IMG/VR virus record: IMGVR_UViG_3300017781_000155
Span: 1-22,691 of that record
Strand: one strand, 5' to 3'
DNA from: a virus
DNA length: 22,691 bases
Positions 2,013 to 6,265 of the stretch are shown here, piece by piece. A model generated the notes under the pieces. It was not told the origin of the DNA. It was given only the letters and a program-made list of their open reading frames with translations, and did no database searches. Numbering within the stretch: the first letter of the stretch is position 1; the number at the start of each line of letters is the position of its first letter. A program made the translations under genes and the position numbers.

Positions 2013-4508
2013 TTACTCTACCCCCACAATTCCGTAAATTTGTATATTCATCATCCTTGATGCTGTGGTAAGAGCAGTGTCAAATTCAGGAATATCTCTA
2101 TTATTACTTGGATTGGTAGTTAAATTTCCCTTTGCATCCGTACTGGTCTGTATTGTAGTGACATTAACCGTTGATCCAGCAGGTGGATCTGGAACGGGTT
2201 GTTTTTCAGAATATGGAATTACCTGAAGTGGAGTCGGTTTAGGTGCAGATTGAGGTTTTTCTGATACTGCACCAGTAAATGGTGCCGAAAATGAATTTGC
2301 AGGTAGAGTTTTTGGTGCTACCATAGATTCCCCATTATCAGGTGCTTCTGGAGTAGGAGGAGCAGCAACAACTGCAGAACTTTTCAATCCTTTAAAACTA
2401 GATCCCAAATTAGAACTAGATCCATTTGAAGAACTTGGAGTTCGACTCATTGGATATTGCATCTCTGGTGGTAACTCTACACTTCCACTATTTCCAGATG
2501 ATCTCATTGTTGGAGATGCAGTTTTTGCTCTCTCCAACATTTTGAATTTCCTAAATTCAACCATTGTTTTTTGAATACCAACTTGCTCTACTCTTTCATC
2601 AAAACCAAATCTTCTCCTTTGTTCTTCTTGTGCTGCTATTATATCAATAGAGGGAATATTATTAAAATCTACACCGATCCTACCACCTTGTTGAGCAAAT
2701 TGTAATCCATTCAAAAACTTAGGAGCATTAGTTCCGCCACCAGCTTTATTTAAATCCAAAAATAATTGAGGACCAAACTTATCTACAGCACCCTTACTCA
2801 TAACAAATTCGCCAGGTTGAGCGACAATCATCTGAGTATCCTTACCACCACCCCTTACACGATTACCACTAGACTGTGTGACTCTACCACCAGAAAGTGG
2901 AGTTTTTCTTGGAACTTTACCACCACCAGCAAGACCAGGAGCATTTAAAGAAGGTAGTATACCTCTAGTAAATGTTTCCATAATACTACCAGGTTTTGAT
3001 AGTTCATCCGCTTGCTGCTTTGGAGGAGCATCACTCAGACCTTTATCTTCTAATTGCTGTTCAGTGCTATCCTTAGCTCTGAATGCCATAACACCAGCAG
3101 CAACGCCAGTACCGATTGCAGCAGCTGCAAGTGGATTCTTTGCAACAAATCTCAAGAGCATTGGTATGCCCCGTTTCAACATAGTTAATGTAAGTTTTGC
3201 TATGGTCCCCATAACTGTTCTTACTAATAAACCAAGAGGCGTTGCAAATAATAAGAACCCTGCAAGTAACGCTGGCCACCAGTCTTTCACAAACTGTATG
3301 ACATTATTAAGTTTACCCTGATTCTCAGAATTACCCAACCATTCAATAAGTTTATATAATATCCTACCAAGGATAATTGTTTTCAGGAAGTTCATTATCC
3401 TTCCCAAAATATCAAATACTGGAGAGAGTACCTTTCTAGCGGCACTCATAGTCTTTTTGACTGCGCCTTCTAATTTATTCTCCCTATCTTCTCTAGTAGA
3501 TCTCTCAAATGCTTTGCGATTAGCACCAATCGCTTTCATTTTTTGCTTGAGAGAATTCTCAAGAATTTTTTGTATCGCTTCTACATTTTTACGAATTGCA
3601 GCAACATTCTCTTCAAGAGATGCCTTTTTCTTCTTCCTTTTCTTTTTAGGTCCTTCTGCTGGAGCAAGTAATTTTTGTTCTTTTTCTGGAGCACCTGTAA
3701 TAAAATTTTTAGCTGCCTTTACTGGAGATGGAGCTGTTGGATCAGATCCTATATTTACCTTCTTCTGCTTAATCTTAAATCTACCAACTTTCTTCTTTAC
3801 TCTCTTAAATTCATTTGATATTAATTCTGCTTCTTCAGTGCTAATCTTAGCACCTGTCATTCTAGCAGCAACACTCCACTCTTTTAAAAGAGTGGTGTAA
3901 GTTGCATAATCAATATCTTCAATTACATCTAATCCTAACATTCTTAGGATTCTTTCATCAATCTCCTCATCACCAATTAAATCATCTTCCTTTACACCCT
4001 CATATATTGTAAGAGCGGGGGAAGGTTTTTTCTCCTTTGGTTTTGATTCTGTCTTTGGAATAGATAGGAGACCGTCATCATCACCATATCCTTCAAACTC
4101 ACCCTCTGAAGTTACTTGAGGAGGTTCTTGATCTAAAGTTGTTTTTGGTTTTGGTGGTTCTGGTTTTTTCTGCTTTGGTAGTTTAGGCGGTGCTTTTGGT
4201 TTTGCTGGTTCTTTCTTATTCTGAACATAGTATTCCCAAAGGTATAGACAATATTCATTGAATACACCAAATTCAGCAATATTTTGAGGTGTTATAACGG
4301 ACGGTGATGGATAATCTTTTTCAGATTTATCCCATGCTTTAAGAAATATACTTACTACTCTATCATAATCAACGTCATATGCGTCACCAATAAGAATCTT
4401 AGACCGTTCCATATAACTGGAAACAGTCTGTCTAAACCCATCTTTCCTCTTTACAAGACGAGAATATGGGATTATTTCGCTTAGATACTTTGGTAACTTA
4501 TTAGCCAT
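2013..4508 (-). CDS. Putative tail tape-measure or hub structural protein, 831 aa
   Basis: Long structural protein of cyanomyovirus type, with no T4 gene I can name with certainty. In order: a short folded N-terminus (1-95); a Pro/Lys-rich linker (about 98-170); an acidic region; a Lys-rich coiled-coil stretch (about 296-345, around AIRKNVEAIQKILENSLKQ); a hydrophobic block (about 400-480, including WWPALLAGFLLFATPLGLLV and an Ala/Gly-rich helix); then Gly/Ser/Pro-rich sequence with a conserved-looking PGEFVMSKGAVDKFG element near 570; and a disordered Pro/Ser-rich tail. Length, long helices and an internal membrane-like segment are classic tape-measure traits. The position also fits: the gene directly follows the gp26/frameshift-ORF pair, where lambda-like phages keep the tape measure. 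The start ATG (4508-4506) overlaps the upstream TAA as TAATG, implying translational coupling. The tape-measure role is inferred, since in T4 that job belongs to gp29. Confidence 0.75.
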   Translation of the reverse strand: MANKLPKYLSEIIPYSRLVKRKDGFRQTVSSYMERSKILIGDAYDVDYDRVVSIFLKAWDKSEKDYPSPSVITPQNIAEFGVFNEYCLYLWEYYVQNKKEPAKPKAPPKLPKQKKPEPPKPKTTLDQEPPQVTSEGEFEGYGDDDGLLSIPKTESKPKEKKPSPALTIYEGVKEDDLIGDEEIDERILRMLGLDVIEDIDYATYTTLLKEWSVAARMTGAKISTEEAELISNEFKRVKKKVGRFKIKQKKVNIGSDPTAPSPVKAAKNFITGAPEKEQKLLAPAEGPKKKRKKKKASLEENVAAIRKNVEAIQKILENSLKQKMKAIGANRKAFERSTREDRENKLEGAVKKTMSAARKVLSPVFDILGRIMNFLKTIILGRILYKLIEWLGNSENQGKLNNVIQFVKDWWPALLAGFLLFATPLGLLVRTVMGTIAKLTLTMLKRGIPMLLRFVAKNPLAAAAIGTGVAAGVMAFRAKDSTEQQLEDKGLSDAPPKQQADELSKPGSIMETFTRGILPSLNAPGLAGGGKVPRKTPLSGGRVTQSSGNRVRGGGKDTQMIVAQPGEFVMSKGAVDKFGPQLFLDLNKAGGGTNAPKFLNGLQFAQQGGRIGVDFNNIPSIDIIAAQEEQRRRFGFDERVEQVGIQKTMVEFRKFKMLERAKTASPTMRSSGNSGSVELPPEMQYPMSRTPSSSNGSSSNLGSSFKGLKSSAVVAAPPTPEAPDNGESMVAPKTLPANSFSAPFTGAVSEKPQSAPKPTPLQVIPYSEKQPVPDPPAGSTVNVTTIQTSTDAKGNLTTNPSNNRDIPEFDTALTTASRMMNIQIYGIVGVE

Positions 4509-4681
4509 TAGCTATTTGCTCGCTGTTGTTCAGCTTTAAGTTTTTCTTCTTCCAAATGAGCTTTTAGTAATGCCACATAGACTTCCCGCTCCCATGGAAT
4601 TAGATTTTCAACTTCGGTTAATGAATATTTATGGTACTGTATTAACGCAAAGTTTAACTTATAATAATTCTCCAAATCCAT
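4508..4681 (-). CDS. gp51-position small ORF, probable -1 frameshift extension of gp26
   Basis: A 57-residue reading frame (MDLENYYKLNFALIQYHKYS..., then ENLIPWEREVY) ending in a charged helix rich in Glu and Lys. In T4, gene 51 (a baseplate hub assembly factor not retained in the particle) sits beside gene 26, so position suggests a gp51 counterpart, although I cannot show sequence homology. The short helical style, with a Trp-Glu-Arg-Glu core before a Leu/Glu-rich helix, resembles C-terminal parts of frameshifted tail-assembly chaperones. The bases before ATG 4681 are pyrimidine-rich (CCCTCTCTCAC) and offer no Shine-Dalgarno sequence. The frame is open upstream to a canonical slippery heptamer at the end of gp26, so it is probably translated mainly as a gp26 extension of about 301 residues. 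Its TAA overlaps the ATG of the tape-measure-like gene. Confidence 0.75.
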   Translation of the reverse strand: MDLENYYKLNFALIQYHKYSLTEVENLIPWEREVYVALLKAHLEEEKLKAEQQRANS

Positions 4682-4692
4682 GTGAGAGAGGG

Positions 4693-5412
4693 CTATGCGA
4701 AAAAACTAGATAACCCCTCCAAAACAACAGTGCTCACAACACCAGTTTTTGGATTCTTCACTTTTATCTCATGAGATAGTTTTGGCATAGTAGCAAAAAA
4801 TTTCTCAATCTTTTTAAATTGAGCAGAATTCATTTGATCCAAAAATGCCTGTACCTCTTTTTTAGGAACATCTTCTACAGCCCAAGACTCATCAGCAGTA
4901 AAAATTTGACTGATGCATGAAGCAATCAAATTAAATGATTGCTCAACTCCGACATCATTGGTAAAATCAAAATTTGTTTGAATAAATTGTTCCAGTGATG
5001 GATATTTCATCTCCATCGCAAGTTGCTCGTCAATTTTAATATTATTATCATGGTCTTCATTTTTGACGACTTTAATATCATCAATATTAATTGTGGTGGG
5101 GACATAAGTTTCTTCATCATCGGGACAAAGAACATTTACTTCCAATTCTTCACCAACTGACTTACCTCTAATGTTTAAAAACAAATATTCAATATCAAAA
5201 GTTGGAAGACTCTCAACTTTGATTGTCTCAGTTTTTATACAATTGGTAATTACTGATTTAATTGCAGTGGTTATCTGCTTAGAATCTTCACTTTCTAAAG
5301 CAAGAACAAGTAATTTTTCTTCTCTAACTAAAAAGGGACGATATTGTACAGATTCTCCAGTTGATGGCAACTCAAGTTCATAGGTTGGAGTTGATATAGT
5401 AGGTAATGGCAT
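4693..5412 (-). CDS. 26: gp26-family baseplate hub assembly protein / tail chaperone
   Basis: A 239-residue protein matching the T4 gp26-family pattern of cyanophages. The N-terminus is a PLPTISTPTYELELPSTGE-type beta strand followed by YRPFLVREEKLLVLALESED; the middle is acidic; the C-terminus carries KVKNPKTGVVSTVVLEGLSSFF. T4 gp26 is needed to build the baseplate hub and is thought to act largely as an assembly factor. The last codons form a slippery heptamer leading to the next ORF in the -1 frame, as in tail-assembly chaperones. No clear Shine-Dalgarno sequence precedes the ATG. A late-promoter-like GATAAATA lies 23 bases upstream, just inside the end of the preceding gene. Downstream follow the 57-residue ORF and the tape-measure-like gene, which supports a chaperone role for the pair. 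Confidence 0.82.
   Translation of the reverse strand: MPLPTISTPTYELELPSTGESVQYRPFLVREEKLLVLALESEDSKQITTAIKSVITNCIKTETIKVESLPTFDIEYLFLNIRGKSVGEELEVNVLCPDDEETYVPTTINIDDIKVVKNEDHDNNIKIDEQLAMEMKYPSLEQFIQTNFDFTNDVGVEQSFNLIASCISQIFTADESWAVEDVPKKEVQAFLDQMNSAQFKKIEKFFATMPKLSHEIKVKNPKTGVVSTVVLEGLSSFFA
4699..4705 (-). other. Programmed -1 ribosomal frameshift site (T TTT TTC)
   Basis: Read on the minus strand, gp26 ends AGT TTT TTC GCA TAG. The last T of AGT plus the next two codons form T TTT TTC, an X XXY YYZ heptamer in exactly the phase needed for tandem -1 slippage. After a slip the frame continues CGC ATA GCC CTC TCT CAC ATG GAT, with no stop, straight into the 57-residue ORF. The product would be gp26 residues 1-238 plus six linker residues (RIALSH) plus 57 residues. 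No strong downstream stem is obvious to me, only short TCTC/GAGA complementarity. The same logic is established for lambda G/GT and many tail-assembly chaperone pairs. Confidence 0.72.
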
Positions 5413-5443: not shown

Positions 5444-6265
5444 TCAAAATTGAAAGTTAAAATCAAGTGGGACTTGATTGGAAATAAGATCACTAAATCC
5501 TAAATTATTAAAACTTGCATCATCATTATCCATATTAAACATTTGTGTTGAATCAAATGGATTGGGTCTCCCACCACCACCAAATCCAGTTTTGAGATCG
5601 ATTCCTAGATTAAAATCAAAATTTTCTCCAGGTGCAGACAAGGCTGCATAATCAGTTCTAGACTTTTCTTTACCAATAAAGTATCTAGTGTAAGTCATTG
5701 ATACTGTACACTTCAAAAGTTGAGAAGCTTCATATGATATTTGAATGGTATTCATCGATTTAGGGAATGCATCAACAAAATTATAAACCAAAACAGGATT
5801 TATTAGTTCCTTACCACTCCCAAGACTCTTCTCATACTTTACAATTTGGAAGTTAGTTTGATATTCACTTGGGTATCTAGCTCTTTGATGAATCTTTCCA
5901 TTCATCTGCTGATCACTATAAAGTTCCTCCCCAACTATCCATTTCATCCAATAATCAAAGAATCTAATCTGAAGGTAATTACTGTCTAAAGTAACTAAAA
6001 ATGTAAGATCTATAGTTTCGTCATACAGTCTAGCATATGCATGCCTTTCAACAACACCCATATAATCTCTACTCGTCTCAACCGTGGCGAGACTAGAACC
6101 TGGCAATGCTGCCTCTATACAGGTAAGTTCAAACAATTCCCTGTCCTGTTGCATACCAAAGGAAGGTTGGTTCATCAAAACAGAATACACTGATGTCATA
6201 GAAGGATTCAAAATCCTACTCTTCAGTGTACTCATTGGAACGCCTGGAGTTATTCCTAAGGACAT
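5444..6265 (-). CDS. Tail-tube-fold baseplate protein, possible gp54 equivalent
   Basis: A 273-residue structural protein. Residues about 45-115 (FELTCIEAALPGSSL, then a YARLYDETIDLTFLVTLDSN-type stretch and FDYWMKWIVG) follow the pattern of the T4 gp19/gp48/gp54 tail-tube superfamily: a target-loop-like segment, alternating beta strands, then the helix in which FFDYW-like residues pack. A Tyr/Val-rich strand region (YNFVDAFPKSMNTIQISYE, LLKCTVSMTYTRYFIG) completes the fold, and the C-terminus is Gly/Asn/Asp-rich and probably disordered. In T4, gp54 starts tube polymerisation on top of gp48; a gp48 homologue is encoded on the opposite strand nearby, so this could be the gp54 partner. It might instead be another tube-like cyanophage virion protein. 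It is the first gene of the leftward tail operon and diverges from gp4. Confidence 0.62.
   Translation of the reverse strand: MSLGITPGVPMSTLKSRILNPSMTSVYSVLMNQPSFGMQQDRELFELTCIEAALPGSSLATVETSRDYMGVVERHAYARLYDETIDLTFLVTLDSNYLQIRFFDYWMKWIVGEELYSDQQMNGKIHQRARYPSEYQTNFQIVKYEKSLGSGKELINPVLVYNFVDAFPKSMNTIQISYEASQLLKCTVSMTYTRYFIGKEKSRTDYAALSAPGENFDFNLGIDLKTGFGGGGRPNPFDSTQMFNMDNDDASFNNLGFSDLISNQVPLDFNFQF

Follow-up and report, generated by a model that had tools for sequence, protein, structure and literature searches.

A conserved -1 slip site very probably joins gp26 and the gp51-position reading frame into one tail-assembly-chaperone gene in a cyanophage fragment and its relatives

In a 22.7-kb virus record, a genome fragment analysed at its full length and referred to below as the window, gp26 and the 57-residue ORF that follows it very probably constitute a single tail-assembly-chaperone gene decoded in two ways via a -1 slip, a reading drawn from comparison of sequences. 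The frameshift arrangement is real but already known in kind, having been proposed earlier for T4-like phages. Comparison of relatives, together with structural evidence, strongly supports the original prediction on two counts, programmed -1 frameshifting and a role as chaperone.

Organization of the gp26 locus

All features of the locus lie on the minus strand, a point left unstated in the original prediction:

5444..6265, minus strand: tail-tube-like protein, encoded upstream of gp26 (PHROG_45 tail tube, E 1.9e-28; Pfam PF23849)
4693..5412, minus strand: gp26, predicted short tail-assembly chaperone form (TAC-N), 239 aa (PHROG_150, E 2.9e-78; Pfam PF12322, E 1.4e-73; predicted N-domain resembling 2ob9, at a moderate Z of 7.7)
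4714..4720, minus strand: GGAGGGG, Shine-Dalgarno (SD)-like, possible stimulator of the slip site that lies 8 nt downstream (anti-SD duplex and codon bias, 185 loci)
4699..4705, minus strand: slippery heptamer T_TTT_TTC in the -1 phase (TTTTTTN kept in 185/190 distinct loci)
4682..4699, minus strand: six -1-frame codons R-I-A-L-S-H leading from the slip site to the ORF (open in the window; -1-frame codon constraint, 136 distinct sequences)
4508..4681, minus strand: 57-aa ORF, "gp51" in the annotation of relatives, predicted C-terminal domain of the fusion (TAC-C; PHROG_634, E 2.8e-25)
2013..4508, minus strand: 831-aa tape-measure-like protein, presumed client (weak tape-measure PHROG match, E 0.0024, residues 541-605)

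The overlapping-frame pair of gp26 and the ORF is thus directly upstream of the tape-measure-like gene, in the order tube-like, gp26, ORF, tape-measure-like. The 3' end of gp26 reads GAG GGG TTA TCT AGT TTT TTC GCA TAG, placing T_TTT_TTC in the -1 phase 3 nt before the TAG as originally described, and the -1 frame is indeed free of stops through six codons into the ORF (FF-RIALSH-MDLENYYK...). The resulting fusion would comprise 238 + 63 = 301 residues, the length foreseen. Besides PHROG_634, the ORF hits the C-terminal part of PHROG_150 (241-280, E 2.4e-4); its ATG lies 9 nt beyond the gp26 stop. The earlier statements that it lacks a ribosome-binding site and that its stop overlaps the start of the 831-aa gene were both borne out: the stretch upstream of its ATG, TAGCCCTCTCTCAC, is pyrimidine-rich and contains no Shine-Dalgarno, and its TAA ends on the A that opens the ATG of the next gene (TAATG). 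The 831-aa protein is a putative tape measure on the basis of the weak PHROG match and of synteny, HTVC008M having a gene with the annotation "putative tape measure" in this position and the phiM12 gene there matching tape-measure PHROGs (E 1.8e-5).

Predicted fold of gp26

The predicted structure of gp26 had a pLDDT of 87. The top PDB matches of its N-domain were 3fgx (Z 8.0), 2ob9, the HK97 tail-assembly chaperone (Z 7.7), and YqbN, 3klu (Z 7.3), with the next row at 4.9; these scores are moderate, and by the tool's own note a Z below 8 can be due to chance. The N-terminal ~90 residues of gp26 would have a fold in common with HK97 gp14 (2ob9; Z 7.7 over 84 residues), from which gp26 differs in sequence (10% identity) and in an extra C-terminal domain of ~140 residues. 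Searching the PDB by sequence with gp26 gave nothing useful and an NCBIfam search gave nothing. Taken together with the gene order, the matches of the modelled N-domain lend support to the reading of gp26 as a chaperone.

Conservation of the slip site

Relatives were gathered on the similarity of their gp26, without regard to the junction, and comprised 190 distinct loci from several phage groups with gp26 identities to that of the window down to 27%; IMG/VR scans with the gp26 proteins of KVP40, Marzo and VP-1 as queries returned few loci. Alignment of the junction across relatives, a check suggested with the original prediction, found TTTTTT in the slipping phase at most 60 nt from the gp26 stop, with an open -1 frame, in 185 of the 190, a count that overstates the independent evidence because the loci are related. 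The -1 ORF is open for 56-73 codons in every one of these 185 loci, whereas only 0.34% of 50-codon -1-frame segments inside gp26 are open. Across loci the T's are invariant, the last base of the heptamer is variable (C, T, A, rarely G) and so is the amino acid preceding the slip site (S, N, D, A, T, H). All 80 of the nearest loci keep TTTTTTC one codon before TAG with the -1 frame open, and the slip site is also kept in KVP40, P-SSM2, PhiW-14, Marzo, Astolliot, phiM12 and HTVC008M. Elsewhere in these gp26 genes, by comparison, T_TTT_TTN is found at no more than 5 of the 199 remaining FF dipeptides.

A chance origin of the slip site is rejected by this difference and by the -1 ORFs being always open. 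As a bare string TTTTTTC is not enriched in the window (11 found, 12.4 expected), and the heptamer is notable because of its phase, place and conservation rather than its occurrence as such.

The five exceptions among the 190 loci are of T4 type, of Ackermannviridae type and, in one case, an indel. In a relative nearly identical to Stenotrophomonas phage Marzo (L175, near position 3200) the gp26 frame continues beyond the slip site and enters the ORF. An indel at the T run is the probable cause, and it may reflect either an error of sequencing or a genuine fusion in frame.

Probable translation of the -1 frame from the slip site

The 57-residue ORF could instead be a separate gene, gp51, with ribosomes re-initiating at its ATG once they have terminated gp26, and the slippery run could be incidental. 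Depositors do list gp51 as a gene of its own, and the ATG lies 9 nt after the gp26 stop in many cyanophages as well as in the window, where some free gp51 might possibly arise by such re-initiation. However, besides the missing SD, 53 of the 185 -1 ORFs have no ATG, GTG or TTG in their first 13 codons, where the head is conserved, as in Melnitz-3 (LIALSHNSLENYF) and AdhaM_G2 (RITLVNHTIYDHF), and in these loci frameshifting is therefore the only evident route to the ORF. Constraint on -1-frame codons begins at the first codon after the slip, upstream of the ATG, with the second bases of codons 2, 4 and 6 nearly invariant and the third bases freer (136 distinct sequences). Together, the constraint upstream of the ATG and the ORFs without a start codon indicate that the -1 frame is translated from the slip site. 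Conservation of the T run, moreover, far exceeds what Phe codon usage would give. A separate gp51 gene with an incidental slippery run is accordingly regarded as very improbable.

Two Aeromonas phages, AdhaM_G2 (L092, 3205-3373) and AsFcp_4 (L257, 3211-3378), carry the slip site and a -1 ORF of 55-57 codons that is absent from the deposited annotation, a point that also speaks against a separate gene; the ORF was probably omitted there for want of a start codon.

Candidate stimulatory elements

Over the 185 loci, a GARGG sequence upstream of the slip site pairs with the anti-SD at a mean of -6.8 kcal/mol, against -2.5 kcal/mol elsewhere in gp26. This signal is partly forced, because a Glu-Gly pair is conserved there as protein; the codon bias is not so forced, GGG making up 23% of Gly codons at the SD-like position against 6% elsewhere in gp26, and GAG 65% of Glu codons against 32% elsewhere. 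The internal SD of Escherichia coli dnaX has a spacing similar to the 8 nt found in the window, and the SD-like sequence may, from its pairing and codon usage, promote the slip. No downstream stimulatory structure was found in the window. A conserved downstream hairpin was rejected as a general feature: in relatives the mean z over a 65-nt stretch was -1.5, and local hairpins near the slip were no commoner than in controls.

These observations also bear on whether the frame change could be made by RNA polymerase slipping on the T run rather than by the ribosome. Polymerase slippage would fit the fact that what is conserved is a homopolymer, reaching 7-8 T's in some relatives. In most relatives, however, the run is exactly six T's long, with C or A as the next base, and such a run is short for efficient polymerase slippage; the run is also held in the precise phase for a tandem slip and has an SD-like sequence upstream, as in dnaX. 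Transcriptional slippage is judged slightly less probable still than a separate gp51 gene, and ribosomal slippage is retained in what follows.

T4 and other relatives

A common frameshift mechanism for T4 genes 26 and 51, also part of the original prediction, did not hold. The two T4 genes are divergent, lying on opposite strands, and T4 is therefore unable to use the frameshift. T4 gp26 matches PHROG_150 over positions 14-235 and T4 gp51 over positions 13-280, so that the homology of gp51 extends over the whole fusion and not only over its tail. When a profile of the predicted fusion was compared with T4-type gp51, hhalign gave a probability of 99.6 and an E of 1.1e-24 over the length of gp51, and the alignment was ungapped at the junction (esFfrialshdsLenyyk against T4-type DVFKLLVNPDEIFTFYQ). 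T4 gp51 is on this account a naturally occurring counterpart of the fusion that is encoded in one frame, and its agreement with the profile across the junction provides independent support for the -1 product. The T4 pair resembles the locus of the window in having a short gp26 and a full-length fused gp51 homologous to the two predicted products, and differs from it in having two separate divergent genes and no frameshift; in T4 the short and long chaperone forms are, judged by homology, two separate genes. The window, by contrast, has a single copy of gp26 in its 22.7-kb fragment, followed by the 57-aa -1-frame ORF, in place of the T4-type two-gene arrangement. Among other Straboviridae, Karamvirus and Tulanevirus have both genes separate and divergent; the frameshift is kept in KVP40 and in Angelvirus AsFcp_4.

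A further arrangement was seen in Slopekvirus (Klebsiella phage KP15, L259, 2501-3795), where a full-length gp51 and a short gp26 are in tandem on one strand with 51 first, unlike T4.

Loci of Ackermannviridae type (CBA120, L255, 2270-2470; Marshall, L262; UPM 2146, L264; VP-1, L091; Vibrio K369, L267) have a conserved -1 ORF after gp26 (in Kuttervirus and Taipeivirus, HLIFEIDLLSYFVMCDEL...) and no tandem slippery heptamer, their gp26 genes ending ATT TTC ATT TAA, GTT TTT CGC TAA or CTT TTC AAG TAA. An ATG is present at the head of the ORF in Limestonevirus and Agtrevirus and absent in Kuttervirus and Taipeivirus, where the ORF is also unannotated. The ORF may possibly be reached by a single P-site slip on T_TTY or from an AUU start.

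Proposed mechanism and relation to known systems

We infer the occurrence and the frequency of the shift from the sequence pattern. Most ribosomes would end at the TAG and yield gp26, the short chaperone, and a minority, with T_TTT_TTC occupying the P and A sites as two Phe codons, would slip back by one base, continue with CGC ATA GCC CTC TCT CAC and arrive at a fusion of ~301 residues. If the analogy with lambda G/GT holds, numerous short copies and a few fusions would then bind and coat the tape-measure protein encoded next, the extra domain of the fusion would recruit tail-tube or hub subunits, and both forms would leave before the virion is completed.

A wider reading, held tentatively and with somewhat less than even confidence, is that in cyanophages and marine relatives gp51, annotated as a hub-assembly catalyst, is never independent and exists only as the tail of a frameshift product, that the shift is driven by the internal SD-like GARGG ~8 nt upstream and not by downstream RNA structure, and that the divergent T4 pair arose when a duplicate in which the fusion had become fixed in one frame took the place of the single recoded gene.

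T4 genes 26 and 51 are reportedly named in the abstract of Vladimirov, Gautam and Davidson 2022. The lambda slip sequence is GGGAAAG, and the present locus differs from lambda G/GT in this sequence and in belonging to a contractile-tail phage. Both have a short chaperone and, predicted in the present case, a minor -1 fusion, their genes lying immediately ahead of that for the tape measure (PMC5009743), and the G/GT frameshift has been reviewed as widespread except in T4 (PMC5009743). The original prediction left undecided whether the arrangement had been described for cyanophages; in kind it was described by Vladimirov et al. (Virology 2022, 566:9-15), who, as cited (PMC10885494, PMC12846349), identified tail-assembly chaperones of T4-like phages. 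The citing papers give one short and one fused gene in some T4-like phages (PMC10885494) and, in other groups, poly-T as known -1 signals in TAC-N genes (PMC12846349). As far as these citing descriptions go, the gp26-type TAC-N, the poly-T -1 slip site and the TAC-C before the tape measure are common to both and nothing essential differs, the present case being an instance from an uncultivated cyanophage. The chaperone locus of Vandenendeviridae and Andersonviridae likewise has a conserved open -1 frame, a T-rich slip motif and a position before the tape measure, and differs in its invariant motif (GTTTTT rather than TTTTTTN) and in the phage families concerned (PMC12846349).

The accepted view of tail-length control would stay unchanged. 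What would be corrected is the annotation of hundreds of cyanophage genomes that list gp26 and gp51 as two hub proteins, and the comparison provides quantified support for recoding in Kyanoviridae and uncultivated relatives, with T4, the textbook phage, as the different case.
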